Positions 22,980 through 56,774 of a DNA stretch of 64,000 nt are shown here, piece by piece. Each line of letters starts with the position of its first letter. The stretch's first letter is position 1. The notes under the pieces are model-generated. The model searched no databases and had not been told where the DNA came from. It was given only the letters and a program-made list of their open reading frames with translations. Source of the DNA: an uncultured Vicinamibacterales bacterium (GTDB lineage Bacteria > Acidobacteriota > Vicinamibacteria > Vicinamibacterales > UBA8438); the NCBI GenBank assembly GCA_958295905.1, contig OY282382.1:5080910-5144909 (forward strand). The letters are read 5' to 3'. Both the position numbers and the translations under genes were made by a program.

Positions 22980-23747
22980 TCACGAGGGCCAGAGATACCA
23001 GTGGATCAGCGGCGGGGCGACGTGGGTGGACAGGAGGGCGCCGGCGGCCAGGAACGTCCCGAACGGCAAGGGGTAGCTCAGGTTGTCCCGGTTGGCGGCG
23101 ACCATGGCCCCGCCGACCAGCGAACCGGACAGCGAGGCGATCATCAGCGTTACGAGCATGTGGGGCCAACCGAGAAAGGCCCCGACCATGGCGAGCATCT
23201 TCACGTCGCCCATGCCCATCCCCTCGCGGCCGCGCAACCGCAGGTAGGCCTCGCCGACCGCCCACGGGATCGCGCCCCCCGCGGCCGCCCCGACCACCGA
23301 GGCCTGCCACCCCGGCTCCCACCACAAGCTGCACGCGACGCCGATTCCCACACCCGGCAGGGTGATGACGTTCGGCAGAATCCGGTGGCGGAGGTCGATC
23401 ACCCCGAGCACGATCATCGACGCCGCGAACAGCAGGCGGGCCGCAAGGAGCGGCTGCCATCCGAACTGCCGGTACTGAAGGACGAACACGATCGCGGCGC
23501 CGACCTCCACCAGCGGATAGGCCGTCGATATCGCCGCCCGGCAGGTTCGACACCGGCCGCGCAGGACCATCCAGCTCAGCACCGGCACGTTCTCGAGCCA
23601 CCGCAGGCCACGGCCGCACGCCGGACACCGCGAGGGAGGAGCGACGACCGATTCGCCGCGCGGCAGGCGATGGATGCAGACGTTGAGGAAGCTCCCGACC
23701 GCAAGCCCCGCGGCGGCGACGAGTCCCACCGCCGGCAGCCCGGTCAT
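22980..23747 (-). CDS. pilD: Type IV prepilin peptidase / N-methyltransferase (A24 family)
   Basis: Cleaves prepilin leaders at the inner membrane and methylates the new N-terminus. The 255-residue protein has the N-terminal zinc-type cytoplasmic domain (two CxxC pairs, CPACGRGLRW and CRTCRA), eight or so membrane helices, and the catalytic aspartates in GVIDLRHRILPN and GREGMGMGDVKMLAM (the GxGD motif). NVPVLSW, typical of the family, is present. The start ATG overlaps the stop of a small upstream frame (TCATGA). It serves the pilins encoded on both sides. Confidence 0.93.
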   Translation of the reverse strand: MTGLPAVGLVAAAGLAVGSFLNVCIHRLPRGESVVAPPSRCPACGRGLRWLENVPVLSWMVLRGRCRTCRAAISTAYPLVEVGAAIVFVLQYRQFGWQPLLAARLLFAASMIVLGVIDLRHRILPNVITLPGVGIGVACSLWWEPGWQASVVGAAAGGAIPWAVGEAYLRLRGREGMGMGDVKMLAMVGAFLGWPHMLVTLMIASLSGSLVGGAMVAANRDNLSYPLPFGTFLAAGALLSTHVAPPLIHWYLWPS

Positions 23748-23923
23748 GACGGGGGCGCGCCGGGCAGCGGGGCCGGCGGCGCGGCGGGCGCGCGGGCGAT
23801 GGCACCGCCGGCGGCGCGCAGGAAAACCACATCGGGGACGTTGACCAGGGCCTGCGCGCGGCCGACCTGCTGCAACCACCTGGGAGTCGGTGCCGCAGAA
23901 CCGTTTTGGATCCGATCTAGCAC
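23744..23923 (-). CDS. Possible small protein, 59 residues, partly encoded by repeat F3
   Basis: A GTG-started frame whose first 15 codons lie in repeat F3 copy 1 and whose remainder reads RWLQQVGRAQALVNVPDVVFLRAAGG, ending in a Pro/Ala tail. Its TGA overlaps the pilD ATG. The second half looks protein-like and couples to pilD, so it may be the surviving 3' end of a gene interrupted by repeats F1 and F3. A fragment MGDVWLRQEPAGAD on the far side (near 24150-24108) could be its 5' part, but the joined frame is off by one base under the simplest excision. Not a recognised family. Confidence 0.3.
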   Translation of the reverse strand: MLDRIQNGSAAPTPRWLQQVGRAQALVNVPDVVFLRAAGGAIARAPAAPPAPLPGAPPS

Positions 23924-23996
23924 AATATGCAGCGGTCAGTTGCTGGAGCGTACACAATATATGGTGGTCAGGATTATCTGCGGCGCAGACTCCTAG
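23882..23996 (-). repeat. F3 interspersed repeat, copy 1
   Basis: About 115 bp bounded by inverted ends that are F1-like: GGGAGTCGGTGCCGCAGAACC on the left and GCGGCGCAGACTCCTAG on the right. The interior contains CCGATCTAGCACAATATG and ACACAATATATGGTGGTCAGGA, shared with copy 2 at 30291. Relatively AT-rich against its surroundings. The left CTAG equivalent has mutated (CCTGG). Confidence 0.75.
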
Positions 23997-24226: not shown

Positions 24227-25462
24227 TCACGGCGACGGCTCGACCCCGCCGGCACGCTCGAGCTCCATCGCGATCGCCGCGTCGAAGAACCGCGGCGACA
24301 GCCCCCCGTTTATCACCACGCCGTTTATCACGTAGGTCGGGGTCGCCTCGATGGCGATCAGCGGCCCCAGGGCGATATCGGCGCGCACGTCATCGAGGAC
24401 CGCATCATAGTGCTCGTCGAAGTCGGTCATGCCGGCAACCTCGTCCAACCCCTCCCGAACCGTCTCGCGCGACATCGTCGCTTGGTGCTCGTAGAGCCAG
24501 CGGGCCATCTCGGCGTCACGCCCCTCGCGCCGGGCCAGGCGGACCGCGACCGCGGCCTCGCAGGCTCCCGTGTGCCCGGCCATCGGCGTCTGCTCGTTGC
24601 ACTCCGGGTCGAGCGGATAGTCGATGCTGACCAGTCTCACCGCTCCCGGATGACTGGACTCGTAGCGCGCGAAGATCGGTGCGTAGAGAAAATGGCTCCG
24701 GGCGCACGACGGACACTGGTAGTCGTTGAACTTCAGCACCAGCACCCGCGCCCCCTCTCGCGGGACCGGCAGATCGGCGCGCGGCTGGGCGTTCCAGAAA
24801 CGTTCGAACTCGGACTGGGCGTCGCCGGCGTCGGCTGACGATGCGGCACCGGACGGCGAAGCCGAAGACGCAACGGGAAGAACCGGCGCGGACGGCTCGA
24901 CCAGGAAGGGCAGCACCGCGACGACGGTCAGCCCCAGGTATCCTGCGGCTGCGCCCAGCGCCGCCGGCTTCCCGGCGAGTTGTCCCACGTCGGCAAGCAG
25001 GCGGCCGGGAAGCGACGCCAGCGGCGCCGCCGAGACCGTGCTCACGGCCAGGAAGATGCCGGCGACGGCGACGTGGGCGGTGACGCACAGCAGGCAGAGC
25101 GTTCCGAGGACGAAGAACGACTCGTAGGCGAGAAACAGCACCGCACCGAGTCCGACCGTCGACAGCACCAGCAGATATCCGCCCACGCTGCGGGCCAGTT
25201 CGCCCGATCCCCGGCCCGCCGCCCCCGTCAACAGCGCCACGAGGCCGAACCAGAACGCGCCGAACACCGCGACCGGAATACGGCCGATCGACCCGAAACG
25301 ACTCTGATAGACATCGGTGCAGCTCACGCTCGTGTTGACGTCGCAGAAGCTCACGTAGGCGGGTTCGTGCGCGCTCCGATAGTGCACGTAGGCCGACGTC
25401 GCGGCCGCGGCGAAACCGGCCAGCGCAAGGGCGATGATGACGCGGCGAACTGTTGGACTCAT
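24227..25462 (-). CDS. Vitamin K epoxide reductase fused to DsbA-like thioredoxin domain
   Basis: A 411-residue membrane protein that makes disulfide bonds in exported proteins: the VKOR part re-oxidises the fused thiol oxidase with quinone. The N-terminal half has about five membrane helices, the outer pair C40/C48 (CDVNTSVSC) and the CLLC active site near 122-125. The C-terminal periplasmic half has thioredoxin-type CPSC near 250 in FNDYQCPSCARSH and the cis-Pro loop EATPTYVINGV. Encoded between the major pilin and prepilin peptidase; the mature pilin has two Cys, a plausible substrate. ATG 25462 fits the first membrane helix. Confidence 0.93.
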   Translation of the reverse strand: MSPTVRRVIIALALAGFAAAATSAYVHYRSAHEPAYVSFCDVNTSVSCTDVYQSRFGSIGRIPVAVFGAFWFGLVALLTGAAGRGSGELARSVGGYLLVLSTVGLGAVLFLAYESFFVLGTLCLLCVTAHVAVAGIFLAVSTVSAAPLASLPGRLLADVGQLAGKPAALGAAAGYLGLTVVAVLPFLVEPSAPVLPVASSASPSGAASSADAGDAQSEFERFWNAQPRADLPVPREGARVLVLKFNDYQCPSCARSHFLYAPIFARYESSHPGAVRLVSIDYPLDPECNEQTPMAGHTGACEAAVAVRLARREGRDAEMARWLYEHQATMSRETVREGLDEVAGMTDFDEHYDAVLDDVRADIALGPLIAIEATPTYVINGVVINGGLSPRFFDAAIAMELERAGGVEPSP

Positions 25463-25605: not shown

Positions 25606-26295
25606 CTATTGAATGGGCGTGGACCCCGCCGGCGCGCCGTTCTGGGTGACCGCCACCGCCGCTGTCGACTGGTAGATCGTGCCTCCCTGGTTCGTGCCGA
25701 AGAAGCGCACGCCGCCGCCGCCCGCGGGCGACGCACCGACGAAATAAGTCGAGACCACGCCGCCGGCGGGCACGCCGTTGCATGACGCCGGCGCCCCCGG
25801 CGCGGGCGCGCCGGCGGTCAGCTCGACCGAATAGCTGCTCTTCATGGAGGGGTCCGACGCAAGGTCGGTCCCGATGAAGCCGTCGCCCCCGCCGACCGTC
25901 GGGGGCGTTGCGAGCACCGCGAGGCTCGGTGCGTAGAAGCCGCTGCCGCAACTGGCGGCGAACGTCGCCTGAGCGCTGTTGATGGCCCGCAGCGAATTCA
26001 TGGCCGAGATCTCGTTGGCGGAAATGCGGGCGCGCATCAGGCCCGGCGCCGCGATGGCGGTAATGATGCCGATGATGGCAACCACCATCAGAAGCTCGAT
26101 CAGCGTGAAGCCGCTGCTGCCGCCGGCAGCCCGTGGTGAACCCCCGCGTCGCACCGAGAGCGGCGGGGCGCCCGCCTGACAAGGCGTGAAGAGGGCGCCC
26201 ATTGGGCCCGTGCAACCGACGAACAACGCAGTCAGGCGGGATACAACGCCGCTCGAATGCGGCGGGGACTTTCGCCACGGGCTGCCAGCCTTCAT
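25606..26295 (-). CDS. pilA: Type IV major pilin with a 54-codon insertion in the leader
   Basis: Prepilin with the cleavage site SSG before FTLIELLMVVAIIGIITAIAAPGLMRARISANE (Glu at +5) and a globular domain of about 130 residues with two Cys (AASCGSG, PASCNGV), probably disulfide-bonded. ATG 26295 has a strong AGGAGAGG site. The leader would be 62 residues, because a 162-bp F4 element is inserted in frame after codon 3. Without it the leader reads MKAGGSSG, an ordinary 8-residue type IVa leader. Internal starts inside the insert (ATG giving a 31-residue leader, GTG giving 15) may be used instead. Downstream of a possible sigma-54 promoter. Confidence 0.88.
   Translation of the reverse strand: MKAGSPWRKSPPHSSGVVSRLTALFVGCTGPMGALFTPCQAGAPPLSVRRGGSPRAAGGSSGFTLIELLMVVAIIGIITAIAAPGLMRARISANEISAMNSLRAINSAQATFAASCGSGFYAPSLAVLATPPTVGGGDGFIGTDLASDPSMKSSYSVELTAGAPAPGAPASCNGVPAGGVVSTYFVGASPAGGGGVRFFGTNQGGTIYQSTAAVAVTQNGAPAGSTPIQ
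26125..26286. repeat. F4 inverted-terminal-repeat element, copy 1 (inside the pilA leader)
   Basis: A 162-bp element with perfect 12-bp terminal inverted repeats, GGCAGCCCGTGG and CCACGGGCTGCC. It lies wholly inside the pilA coding sequence between codon 3 and the GGSSG leader motif, and its length is exactly 54 codons with no stop in the sense frame. Related sequence, including both ends, occurs at 51296-51574, and a left-end fragment at 56635-56688. A non-autonomous mobile element is likely. Confidence 0.85.
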
Positions 26296-26614
26296 TCGTA
26301 CCTCTCCTTCACTGTCGTTCCGCGGGCCGGGCCAACCGATCTCGACGCGCGCGGATCGCCGACCGTCACCGAACGGACCCGGCGAGCCGCCGAAGGGCGG
26401 CGACACCCCAATGCCCTCCGACCCGACCATCTCTGCCGCCGAGAACGGCTATTGCAAGCATCGATCCCACGTCGAGGGCCCGCGGTGGGCCGCCGCCCGA
26501 AACCGCCGCCGGGGTCCGGCTGTCCGCCCAACCAACCCTACCGACCCCGCTCGGGGAGCGAGCCCGTCAGCCAAGTCCATTTTACGCCGCCCGATTCGAG
26601 AGCGCATCCGACCC
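26296..26614. other. Upstream region of pilA with degenerate F1 remnant
   Basis: About 320 bases between the pilin start and the insertion sequence. It holds the possible sigma-54 promoter at 26453-26469 and, at about 26520-26560, CCGCCCAACCAACCCT, the conserved centre of F1 in minus orientation followed by unrelated sequence. No gene is supported. Confidence 0.5.
26453..26469 (-). promoter_or_regulatory. Possible sigma-54 promoter for pilA
   Basis: On the minus strand GGGATCGATGCTTGCA has GG and GC ten bases apart and a good -12 box (TTGCA), the sigma-54 spacing; the -24 box is imperfect (lacks TGGCAC). It is about 160 bases upstream of the pilA ATG. pilA promoters in many bacteria are sigma-54 dependent and activated by PilR, and a PilR-like gene is nearby, though it lacks GAFTGA. 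Confidence 0.4.
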
Positions 26615-29036
26615 CTAGCATGGGGTCACAGTTGACACAGGTTCCGGCATGCGGGCTGCCCAGCCAACACCAAGCGACTGTCCAGGGGGCTACGGTGCGC
26701 GCGCGGCTTGGATGGCGCGCACCATCGTCTGCAACTGGACGCATGCCCGCCACATGACTTGGTTGCCGGGCAACGGGCTTCGTTTCGAGGGGTGCCAGCC
26801 GGCCATGCGCGCCAGCAGCACCACCCAACCGCGGATGTCGGGCGGAAACGGCTTCCCACGCTCGGACGGCGGCTGCAGCCGTTCGGCCCGCACCACGGCG
26901 CCGATCACCTGCCGCTCGTCCTCGGTCAGCACCTCCCCGGCCGGTGTTTCCGGCGCGTCCCGCGCGTAGCGGTCCAGGTTGCACACCCGCCATGCCGTGA
27001 CGGCGTCGAACGCCAGGCACTTGACCAGCGCGTCGGCATCCTGCAGCCGCCGGTCTTCGATCCGCGTCCCGCTCTTGAGGACCCGGAAATACTCTTCGAT
27101 CCCCCAGCGGGCCTCATACCAGCCCACGATACGTTCCGCCCATTCCGCCGTCGGCCCCCCCTCGCTCGACAACAGCAGCCACTCCAACGGTTCCTTCCCC
27201 GCCGGCGGCTCGGTCTCCAGAACGCGCACCAGCCACGCCGCCACCGGACCGTCCCCGAGTCGGTCCTGCGGCGGCTGCAGTTCCACCCGCCCGATGCTCA
27301 GCTCGGTCTCCGCCGTCCGTTGTGACCGCGCCCGCTTCCCGCCCTGCGCGCCGATCCGTACCGCCCGACCCGTCTTGACCGGCGTCTCGAAGTCCGGCTG
27401 CGACGCCAGCGTCCGCAGCATCGTCGCCCGCAACTCCGGGTCCCACACCTCCACCCGCCGCCGCCGGCCCGCGTTCGCCCGCACCACCAGCCCCGCCTCG
27501 TCCGCATGCGCCGCCTGCCACTTCAACAGCCCGTAAATGTCGCTCTCCCGGTCCCCGACCACCACCACCCGCGTCCCGGGACTCGCCCGCCCCAACGCCC
27601 GGCCCTGATCGAAGCCCCGGAACCAGCGCCGACTCTCCTTCTCAAGTTCCGCCGCCGGTTCCGCTTCCGGCCGCGCCCACGTCTCCAGCCCGCTCACCCC
27701 CAACGCCCGCCGCCCCTCGGTGAACACCACCGCCGCATGCACGAACAGACCCCGCGCGCTGCCCGTCCGCTCCCGAAGCGGTCCCAACCCCGCCGTGCTC
27801 TCCCGCAGACCGGTGTAGTTCAACGTCGTCGTGTCCTGCACCAGCAGTACCGCCGACTCCGGCCGGCAGCGCTCCACCAGCGCCTCCCGATGCGGTTGCA
27901 GGATGTCCTCGCCGGCCACCTTCTTATTGTGCAGGAAACGATACACCGCCTGTTGCTCGGCACTGCCCGGGAAAACCGCCGGCAGCGGCTCCCCCGGATG
28001 CCGCGCCCACGCCGACCCCAACCGCACCAGACGCGACCGCAAACGCCCGTCGGCCATGTCCGACCGCCCGAACTCGCGCCACGCCCAACCCGACTCGTCT
28101 GCCGCATCAAGCGCCGGAAACGACCCCGGCGCCCGCGACGGCGGCCGACGCAACGTCTCCGCCCAATCCGAGGCCAGACCCCGAAGCCACACCCCCTTCG
28201 GCGCCACCGGCGCCGACGCCCCCGGCGGCAAACCCGACGTCCGGCCCACGCACCGCCAGCCCGCCGCCCGGTAGCTCGTCGCCGGACGGGACGCCTCCAC
28301 GCACGTCTCCACCAACACCGGCCGAACCCCGTGCCGCGCTTCCCAGTCCGACGCCAGACAACTCACCGCCCGCCCCAACACGTGCGAGGCCAAGTGCGGC
28401 ACCCGAACCCCGGGCAACAGCAGAAAACGGTCGTTGGAAACCACCTCCCCGATGTGAAACCCCCGCGTGCGGTCGTCCCAACCCAGATGCGCGTCGCGGG
28501 GCCCCAACCGCATCGGCGCCGACACGAAGCTCAGAACGCCCAGCACCCCCGACGACGCTTCCAGCACATACGTCAGACGGCACCCCGGCGCCCGCCCACG
28601 ACCCCGCGGATGGCACGCCGCCAGCAGATGACCGCACAACCGGCCCTCCGCCGCCGTTTCCGCCACCCGAACATCGACCGCCCCCAACGACGACAAGCTG
28701 CCGCAGAATTCCGTCAGCGGCAACCGCGACCCGCACGCCGACGGATCGCAACCACGACGCGGCGGACCCGATTGCGCGGGCGGCAGCCCCAACCCCAACC
28801 CCGCCGCCAGCTCCGGCAGCGCCTTGCGCGCCGAGGCCGTGCACAACGCCCCCCGCGGGTTGCGCCACCCGTCCCGCTCGCACAGCTCACGCCCCAGCGC
28901 AGACCGCGACAGTTCCCCGTCCCCCAACGCCCCGCGCAACCACTCCACCGTCTCCGGCTGCAAAACCCGCAGACCAATTCGCATGCATCCGTTCTACACG
29001 GAACCTCTGCCGGTGTCAACTGTGATTGAGTGCTAG
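26615..29036 (-). mobile_element. Complete IS4-type insertion sequence with DUF4338-transposase fusion
   Basis: A 2.4-kb element bounded by CTAG on both sides. Inside each CTAG, after seven less conserved bases, lies the identical inverted core TCACAGTTGACAC (26626-26638 and its complement 29013-29025), so the ends are exactly symmetrical. One long transposase gene fills it. Duplicated CTAG flanks agree with a 4-bp target of YTAR type. Intact frame and clean ends suggest recent insertion. It sits between the PilR-like gene and pilA. Confidence 0.9.
26690..28984 (-). CDS. IS4 family transposase with N-terminal DUF4338 (DruA-like) domain
   Basis: A 764-residue fusion. The first 290 residues match DUF4338: LTYVLEASSGVLGVLSFVSA, GPRDAHLGWDDRTR, NDRFLLLPGVRVPHLASHVLG, RPVLVETCVEASRPATSYRAAGW. 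This domain is also the DruA component of Druantia anti-phage systems, where its role is unclear. The C-terminal part is an IS4/Tn5-like DDE transposase: Asp in VQDTTTLNYTG near 383, GDRESDIYG near 478, and the Y-R-E-K block WYEARWGIEEYFRVLKSGTR near 622-640. All three acidic residues are present. It covers nearly the whole element and carries no frameshift. Confidence 0.9.
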   Translation of the reverse strand: MRIGLRVLQPETVEWLRGALGDGELSRSALGRELCERDGWRNPRGALCTASARKALPELAAGLGLGLPPAQSGPPRRGCDPSACGSRLPLTEFCGSLSSLGAVDVRVAETAAEGRLCGHLLAACHPRGRGRAPGCRLTYVLEASSGVLGVLSFVSAPMRLGPRDAHLGWDDRTRGFHIGEVVSNDRFLLLPGVRVPHLASHVLGRAVSCLASDWEARHGVRPVLVETCVEASRPATSYRAAGWRCVGRTSGLPPGASAPVAPKGVWLRGLASDWAETLRRPPSRAPGSFPALDAADESGWAWREFGRSDMADGRLRSRLVRLGSAWARHPGEPLPAVFPGSAEQQAVYRFLHNKKVAGEDILQPHREALVERCRPESAVLLVQDTTTLNYTGLRESTAGLGPLRERTGSARGLFVHAAVVFTEGRRALGVSGLETWARPEAEPAAELEKESRRWFRGFDQGRALGRASPGTRVVVVGDRESDIYGLLKWQAAHADEAGLVVRANAGRRRRVEVWDPELRATMLRTLASQPDFETPVKTGRAVRIGAQGGKRARSQRTAETELSIGRVELQPPQDRLGDGPVAAWLVRVLETEPPAGKEPLEWLLLSSEGGPTAEWAERIVGWYEARWGIEEYFRVLKSGTRIEDRRLQDADALVKCLAFDAVTAWRVCNLDRYARDAPETPAGEVLTEDERQVIGAVVRAERLQPPSERGKPFPPDIRGWVVLLARMAGWHPSKRSPLPGNQVMWRACVQLQTMVRAIQAARAP

Positions 29037-29091: not shown

Positions 29092-30141
29092 TCACCCCAG
29101 ATCGTACTTCTTGGCGTAGTAGCGGAACGACCGAAAGCTCATGCCCAAGAGGCCCGCGGCCCTGACTTTGACGCCGCCGGCCTGCCGAAGGGCCCAGGCG
29201 AGGTATTCCCGTTCGAGGTTCCGGACGTGCCGCTCCAAGACGAACCCGGAGTCCGGAAGCCGATCGGCGGGCGCTTCGTCCGGGTGGCCGACGGCGGTGG
29301 ACCCGGCGGGCCGCGGAGCTTCGACCCGTCTGTCGGGGCCCGGCGCGTCGCCGATCTCGAGACTCCCGGCCTCGACCCGGTTCGCAGGCTCGAGGACGAC
29401 CGCCCGCTCGACCACGCTCTCGAGCTCACTGACATTCCCGGGCCACCTGTGGGCCTCCAGCGCGCGCTCGGCGGCCGGAGAGAACCCCCGGAGGTCCCGG
29501 CGGACCCCACGGGCGAACCGCTCGACGAAGTGGCGGGCCAACGGCAGGATGTCCTGCCGCCGGGCACGCAGCGGAGGCACGTGGAGGTTGAAGACGCTCA
29601 GGCGGTGGAACAGGTCGCCCCGAAAGTCACCGTTCTCGACCATCCCCGCGAGGTTTCGGATCGTCGCCGCGATGATCCGGACCGCGGCATCCCTGGCGCC
29701 CGCGCCGCTCGTACGCCGAAACTGCCGCTCCTTGAGGAACCGCAGCAACGACAGTTGCCAAGCCTCGTTCATGTCTCCGACGTCCGCCAGAAACAGCGTG
29801 CCGGGTTCGGCCGTCGCGTCCCGGCCCGGTCGGCCATCCCCCGCGCCGCCGGCGACCGATGTCCCGAGCCAGAACGGCTTCGGTTCGAGAATCGTCTCGG
29901 GCGCCGCTTCGACGCGCACGGCGACGAACGGCAGCGCGGAGCGTCCGGAGCGGCCATGGATGGCCCGCGCGATCAGCTCCTTGCCGACACCGGGGTCGCC
30001 GGTGATCAGCACCGTGACGTCGGTGGGCGCGACCCGCGCCATCCGTTCCCGGGTTCGCTGCATCTGCGGGCTGTCGCCCACGATGTCGTACGCGCCCCCC
30101 GCATTCCGCGCCGACGCGCCGCCCGCATCGCTCCTGGACAT
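29092..30141 (-). CDS. PilR/NtrC-type AAA+ regulator lacking the GAFTGA loop
   Basis: A 349-residue protein with an AAA+ domain (about 18-255) and a C-terminal Fis-type helix-turn-helix ending LLGMSFRSFRYYAKKYDL, which is strikingly PilR-like. Walker A is GDPGVGKE (48-54). Where sigma-54 activators have GAFTGA there is KPFWLGTSVAGGAGDG (88-103), and Walker B reads GTLFLADVGD instead of the usual DE pair. The Arg-finger region FRGDLFHRLSVFNLHVPPL is kept. There is no receiver domain. It probably binds DNA but should not remodel sigma-54 normally. It sits between pilC and pilA, from which the insertion sequence separates it. Confidence 0.85.
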   Translation of the reverse strand: MSRSDAGGASARNAGGAYDIVGDSPQMQRTRERMARVAPTDVTVLITGDPGVGKELIARAIHGRSGRSALPFVAVRVEAAPETILEPKPFWLGTSVAGGAGDGRPGRDATAEPGTLFLADVGDMNEAWQLSLLRFLKERQFRRTSGAGARDAAVRIIAATIRNLAGMVENGDFRGDLFHRLSVFNLHVPPLRARRQDILPLARHFVERFARGVRRDLRGFSPAAERALEAHRWPGNVSELESVVERAVVLEPANRVEAGSLEIGDAPGPDRRVEAPRPAGSTAVGHPDEAPADRLPDSGFVLERHVRNLEREYLAWALRQAGGVKVRAAGLLGMSFRSFRYYAKKYDLG

Positions 30142-51295: not shown

Positions 51296-51574
51296 GGCAG
51301 CCCGTGTCACCCTCTGGCGGCATTCGACCGGGGCTGCATCCCGGCAGACTGCTTGCTACTGCCGCCGCCTGCATCCGCAAGCGCCGAACCCACGCCGGAG
51401 TCCGGGCCGCGCCGACGCCCCGCGGCAGCAGGATCGTTCATCGAGAGAACCCCCGCGCAAGCGCCGATGCGCGGTTTCAGCTCCGGCTCCCAGCGCTCTT
51501 TGCCCGCGGGCGCTCTTCAGCCCGCCGGCGCCCCCGCCACCCGCGGTGCGACGCGGGGTTACACCACGGGCTGC
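51296..51574. repeat. F4 inverted-terminal-repeat element, copy 2
   Basis: About 279 bp between rplR and rpsE. The ends GGCAGCCCGTG and CACGGGCTGC match those of the copy in pilA, and next to the right end GGTGCGACGCGGGGTT is also shared. The centre is longer than in pilA and includes a hairpin-rich stretch (GCGCTCTTTGCCCGCGGGCGCTC). The right end carries the first base of the CTAG containing the rplR stop. No coding capacity. Confidence 0.8.
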
Positions 51575-51948
51575 TAGAACTTCAGACCGGCCTCTCTCGC
51601 CGCATCCGCGACCTTGCGAATCCGACCGTGATACAGAAACCCGCCACGGTCGAAAACCACGCTCCGGATGCCCTTTTCGAGCGTCCGTTCCGCGATCAGG
51701 CGGCCGATCACCTGCGCACCCGCCACATTTCCACCGGCGGCTCCATCGGCGAAGCTCGCCTTGACCGTCGGCTCGGTGCTGGACGCCGATGCCACCGTGG
51801 TACCGTTCAAGTCGTCGATCACCTGGACCGCAATATGCTCCAGGCTCCGGAAGACCGACATTCTCGGCCGATCCGGCGTCCCTGAGATCTTCTTGCGCTG
51901 ACGCAGTGCAATCCGGTGGCGCCGATCTTTTTTCGTCTTGACCTTCAT
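51574..51948 (-). CDS. rplR: 50S ribosomal protein L18 (uL18)
   Basis: 5S rRNA-binding protein of the central protuberance. The 124-residue product shows RHRIALRQRKKISGTPDRPRMSVFRS and the C-terminal FDRGGFLYHGRIRKVADAAREAGL. Its TAG stop falls in a CTAG at the edge of F4 copy 2, which separates it from rpsE by 290 bases, an unusually wide gap inside the spc operon. Confidence 0.97.
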   Translation of the reverse strand: MKVKTKKDRRHRIALRQRKKISGTPDRPRMSVFRSLEHIAVQVIDDLNGTTVASASSTEPTVKASFADGAAGGNVAGAQVIGRLIAERTLEKGIRSVVFDRGGFLYHGRIRKVADAAREAGLKF

Positions 51949-56582: not shown

Positions 56583-56634
56583 CGCCGTGCTGCGCCGCTC
56601 CGGTTATCGGCCCGGCAGGAACTTCCGCCTCCCA

Positions 56635-56688
56635 GCAGCCCGCGGCGAAAGTCCCCGCTGCCTTCGAGCGGCGATGCATCCTGCCTGC
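56635..56688. repeat. F4 end fragment, copy 3
   Basis: GCAGCCCGCGGCGAAAGTCC and CTTCGAGCGGCGATGCATCCTGCCTG match the same end of the F4 copy in pilA (there GCAGCCCGTGGCGAAAGTCC, then CATTCGAGCGGCGTTGTATCC). The element is cut off at an F1 repeat boundary, suggesting that F1 inserted into it or that a deletion occurred between them. Confidence 0.75.
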
Positions 56689-56774
56689 CAGCCCGGAAAT
56701 CGTCGCCTGCGGCTCCGATTGCCGCCCGACCAACCCTCCAGGAGTCCGCGCCGTTCTACGGCGCAGATTCCTAG
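56689..56774 (-). repeat. F1 interspersed repeat after rplV, full copy
   Basis: Complete minus-sense copy from CTAGGAATCTGCGCCGTAGAAC, whose CTAG includes the rplV stop, to TTTCCGGGCTGG. Here the outer stem reads GGAATCT/GGACTCC, exchanged compared with other copies but still pairing through G-T wobbles. Confidence 0.92.

Follow-up and report, generated by a model that had tools for sequence, protein, structure and literature searches.

A MITE inserted in frame in the leader of a type IV pilin gene of a Vicinamibacterales bacterium

The 64,000-nucleotide stretch of DNA analysed here (the window) carries a type IV pilus gene cluster in which the leader of the prepilin gene pilA contains a mobile element. 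The features of the locus are as follows.

22980..23957, minus strand: pilD, type IV prepilin peptidase (Pfam A24_N_bact and Peptidase_A24)
24227..25462, minus strand: VKOR/thioredoxin-fold gene in the pilA-pilD interval (Pfam; syntenic in congeners by tblastn)
25606..26295, minus strand: pilA reading frame, open over 229 codons plus stop, with the MITE inside its leader
26107..26112, minus strand: predicted PilD cleavage site, G62/F63 (FTLIELL), placed by translation and N_methyl match
26123..26126, minus strand: target duplication (4 bp), downstream copy; coding strand CCGG (family alignment and the congeners' CCAG)
26127..26284, minus strand: MITE core, 158 bp, CAGCCCGTGG...CCACGGGCTG, with ends set by an alignment of 40 full-length copies with their flanks, and with dispersed copies in its own genome
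26285..26288, minus strand: target duplication (4 bp), upstream copy; coding strand CTGG (family alignment and the congeners' CCAG)
26300..26309, minus strand: Shine-Dalgarno region, AAGGAGAGGT, which precedes the native ATG (26293-26295) and is retained in congeners
29092..30141, minus strand: sigma-54 activator, PilR-like (Pfam; the next upstream gene of pilA in congeners by tblastn)

PilA matches Pfam N_methyl above its cut-off at residues 60-82 and has the type IVa prepilin motif for cleavage and methylation, G/FTLIEL. It lacks the short leader of a type IVa prepilin, having 62 residues from the native ATG as against 8 in congeners. The peptidase gene pilD, the single A24_N_bact match in the genome, lies 1.6 kb downstream of pilA in the same cluster. 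Only two genes with N_methyl were detected in the genome, one of them pilA, which leaves no obvious substitute for it; a second copy of this pilin was not found there either. The gene order pilR, pilA, VKOR/thioredoxin and pilD is shared, by tblastn, with two congeners (G010 and G009), which match at the pilA locus the Vicinamibacteria MAG records JAJEEA010000048 and JAJEFC010000182. An IS4-type element (26615-29036), whose ends are 27 nt long and whose 764-aa transposase has an N-terminal DruA-like domain, sits between pilR and pilA in the window; the two genes adjoin in the congeners.

The 162 bp that part the first three pilA codons from the GGSSG/FTLIELL motif have perfect 12-bp inverted ends. 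These ends, the 162-bp length, the absence of stop codons, the phase relative to the codons and the prepilin motif had all been reported in the initial annotation, and a check of the sequence confirmed them. Within the window GGCAGCCCGTGG occurs without mismatch solely at these two ends, and the inverted repeat, in imperfect form, reaches 32 nt; a search of Rfam found no RNA family that matches the element. The annotation had taken the whole 162 bp as the element. As a net addition this figure stands, but the transposing unit is 158 bp and the remainder is a 4-bp target duplication, to which the outermost two bases of each 12-bp end belong. The insertion amounts to a whole number of codons because 158 and 4 make 162 bp, and since these 54 codons contain no stop, an 8-residue cleavable leader has apparently become one of 62 residues with the mature protein untouched.

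The site before insertion can be read directly in the two congeners, whose syntenic pilA is 85-86% identical over the mature pilin. Their Shine-Dalgarno region and ATG are as in the window, and the next letters are AAGGCCAGTGGCAGCAGCGGCTTC or AAGGTCAGTGGCAGCAGCGGCTTC, so that FTLIELL is preceded by MKASGSSG or MKVSGSSG. The empty site of G010, ATGAAGG-CCAG-TGGCAGC, thus corresponds to the filled site ATGAAGG-CTGG-[158]-CCGG-CGGCAGC. A comparison with relatives had been proposed to look for an insert-free pilA leader, and both short leaders and, in these two congeners, the exact empty site were found. Among the 58 loci fetched with this pilin, the window's own pilA alone has the element in its leader. 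The ancestral leader had been given as MKAGGSSG. That a short leader precedes FTLIELL in relatives is borne out, but its sequence is that of the two congeners, and the difference is confined to the target-site codons.

The insert belongs to a large family, and the many other genomic copies anticipated for the inverted-repeat element do exist. Dozens of dispersed matches lie in the 6.3-Mb genome (40 of 400 candidates were scored), the best of them 91% identical. About 17 copies, whole or partial, were found by profile in a systematic 400-kb sample together with the 64-kb window, from which 464 kb about 200 family copies per genome can fairly be extrapolated. Within its taxonomic family most genomes carry copies, often in large numbers, and the element is plentiful in related genera; some other families of the order have copies too. 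Two more copies, one a long variant and one partial, lie in the window at 51296-51575 and 56634-56692.

Alignment of the 40 full-length copies with their flanks placed the 158-bp core between 4-bp duplications, with a preference for CTAG, which flanks well-preserved copies. Across these copies and pilA the paired flanks agree in 133 of 164 letters, as against 111 expected by shuffling, and none of 2000 shuffles scored as high. The exact flank pairs ACGA, CTAT and CTTG mark these letters as a genuine target duplication and not element sequence. At pilA both duplication copies have drifted from CTAG. That there was no insertion at all, the long leader being either ancestral and lost in relatives or an assembly artefact, has one point to commend it, namely that the long leader occurs in one genome only, and we regard it as scarcely credible: the dispersed copies with target duplications, the short leaders of relatives and the empty sites, which contradict an ancestral long leader, all speak against it. 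Misassembly of a repeat is unlikely because the pilA copy is unlike all others, with the nearest, among the candidates scored, at about 91%.

A probable driver of the family was found in the same genome. A 1457-bp insertion sequence is present there in at least 13 copies that are near-identical in protein (99-100%; for example L227:17306-18762), a burst which, as judged from this similarity, indicates recent or ongoing transposition. Its transposase has DUF772 and DDE domains and finds its best family match in IS1182; as it scores 170.5 bits against NF033551 (NCBIfam), below the cut-off of 270, we call the element IS1182-like only. At its left end the IS agrees with the MITE at 17 of 18 bp; exact CTAG, CTAC or GTAG duplications (4-bp NTAN) flank the IS copies inspected. 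Because terminal repeats and 4-bp NTAN duplications are common to both, the pilA element is most readily understood as a MITE of this IS, probably mobilised in trans by the IS1182-like transposase. The family has the other properties of a MITE as well: terminal inverted repeats, small size, no transposase-sized frame inside, a target duplication, dispersed copies, and ends in common with an autonomous IS of the same genome. Together, the target duplications and the matching autonomous IS show that the earlier view of the insert as mobile DNA was right.

Other candidate parents were set aside. The neighbouring IS4-type element has different ends (CTAGCATGGGGTCACAG...). No parent was found among solo ends in another genome, G004; it came from the sample of the own genome. 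A second end pair, at L229:17017-18041 in the own genome, proved to consist of MITE-like ends, with an exact ATAG duplication, that enclose an ORF-less group II intron.

How pilA is now translated is a question of start site. The Shine-Dalgarno sequence of the native ATG pairs with the anti-Shine-Dalgarno at -8.8 kcal/mol, as against -2.6 or weaker at internal starts, which favours the native start over one inside the element. The in-frame internal starts noted at the outset are real (ATG at codon 32, GTG at codon 48), and translation might have moved to one of them, most plausibly GTG48, whose leader, VRRGGSPRAAGGSSG, is of ordinary length and charge and resembles a normal prepilin leader. 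We consider such a shift improbable, since neither codon has a Shine-Dalgarno sequence (about -2.5 kcal/mol), both lie within the element's hairpin and the native start is intact. When flanked by CTAG, the family consensus can be read through without a stop in only a single frame out of six, and this is the frame that pilA uses. The pilA copy differs from the consensus by 11 substitutions that alter about ten residues, as fits a leader free to drift. A frame would, however, stay open over about 13 changes in two thirds of neutral cases, so that its openness does not prove translation.

The main rival, and a live one, is that the insertion has damaged pilA: a hairpin in the mRNA next to the start, or a leader of a length that export or PilD cannot handle, would cut or abolish pilin, and the gene would be heading for decay. 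The insert is predicted to fold as a single long hairpin (-110.8 kcal/mol, z -6.2 against shuffles) which starts some 8 nt inside the reading frame, with positions +4 to +15 mostly paired, and so stable a structure near the start may hinder or lower initiation. The drift of both duplication copies from CTAG, and the IS4-type element that also parts pilR from pilA here, would suit a decaying locus. Yet the Shine-Dalgarno region and ATG are predicted to be no less accessible than in congeners, the remaining cluster is intact, and the genome has no second copy of this pilin to take over. The mature part is intact too and, as judged from sequence comparison, is under purifying selection, with a dN/dS of about 0.2 (0.18-0.21 against congeners, a figure that also spans time before the insertion). 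On balance we think damage unlikely, though less so than a moved start.

The explanation that we favour, and hold to be probable, is that a MITE inserted into pilA, that translation keeps to the native start, and that PilD cuts off the 62-residue leader and leaves the mature pilin unchanged. After the split from the sequenced congeners, a 158-bp MITE would have been mobilised by the transposase of the IS1182-like element with the same ends and would have inserted at pilA codons 3-4 with a 4-bp target duplication. It would have landed in the sole strand and phase in which the consensus reads open throughout, so that the net gain of 162 bp made 54 codons. Ribosomes would still start at the native ATG, where the Shine-Dalgarno sequence is strong; the resulting prepilin would insert in the membrane and be cut by PilD at the unaltered G/FTLIELL, yielding the same mature pilin as before. 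We propose that the insertion was tolerated because the leader is discarded. Translation and removal of the long leader are favoured by the strong Shine-Dalgarno sequence, the sole open frame, the dN/dS, the drifting leader, the nearby pilD and the lack of a substitute. A further reading is that the MITE has been domesticated, with its hairpin governing how strongly the major pilin is translated and with the 54 codons acting as a working long leader accepted by PilD. If so, a transposon would now be a functional part of pilus biogenesis; we consider this very unlikely.

The pilA copy stands apart within its family. The other copies examined seem mostly to be intergenic or just upstream of start codons, and elements of 161, 163 and 168 bp are also present. 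Among about 100 full-length profile hits (some of them the same copy twice), a rough screen, based on codon-position composition and on Pfam instead of a gene caller, considered frames open through the element, ten of which were scanned with Pfam. It found no second clear in-frame copy within a gene, whether by a conserved domain or by a coding frame on both sides. Adaptation of the whole family to coding regions, in the manner of Rickettsia palindromic elements, was rejected on this result and on the lengths of 161, 163 and 168 bp. Given some 200 copies in each genome, it is no surprise that one should now and then land harmlessly in frame. In another genome (G002), a family copy (L198:1000-1161) ends 8 nt before the thiI ATG and has therefore replaced the native ribosome-binding region of thiI. 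In a genome of another genus (G013), a partial copy (L044:1028-1117) lies upstream of the pilA orthologue, at a distance of about 400 bp.

The locus offers a natural before-and-after experiment, in that sister species have pilA either with the insertion or without it, and it bears on the leader length that PilD and the export machinery tolerate. It suggests that coding sequence can take up a transposon without harm where the segment hit is later cut off. The analysis also defines a large MITE family, with its likely driver, in the Vicinamibacterales (Acidobacteriota). In the part of the literature covered, we found neither a description of this element family in the order nor a report of a MITE in a prepilin or signal leader.

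In-frame insertions of palindromic elements or MITEs are already known, above all from the Rickettsia palindromic elements (RPEs; Ogata et al. 2000, 2002; PMC10969869). Known MITEs include intragenic ERIC and Anabaena MITEs (PMC10969869). As outlined in that source, RPEs are palindromic repeats of about 150 bp that lie in frame in coding genes and add residues to their products, recurring in unrelated genes with a conserved peptide (PMC10969869). By this description, the pilA insert is likewise a palindromic repeat of about that size that lies in frame and would be read as extra residues. The pilA family differs in being mostly intergenic, without recurrent in-frame copies in coding genes and with one coding insertion found, and in having target duplications and an IS partner. 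Newly inserted copies of IS1272, of the IS1182 family, take the place of an inverted repeat and produce no duplication (PMC5678879). The partner transposase finds its best family match there, with DUF772 and DDE domains, but its IS makes 4-bp NTAN duplications and its score falls below the family cut-off. With MITEs in general the pilA family shares its short, non-coding sequence, inverted ends, target duplication, many copies and the ends of a full IS in the genome; it is set apart by being apparently undescribed in the Vicinamibacterales and by an insertion in a leader that is predicted to be cleaved off. It is this combination of a disposable leader and a documented empty site that makes the pilA case instructive.
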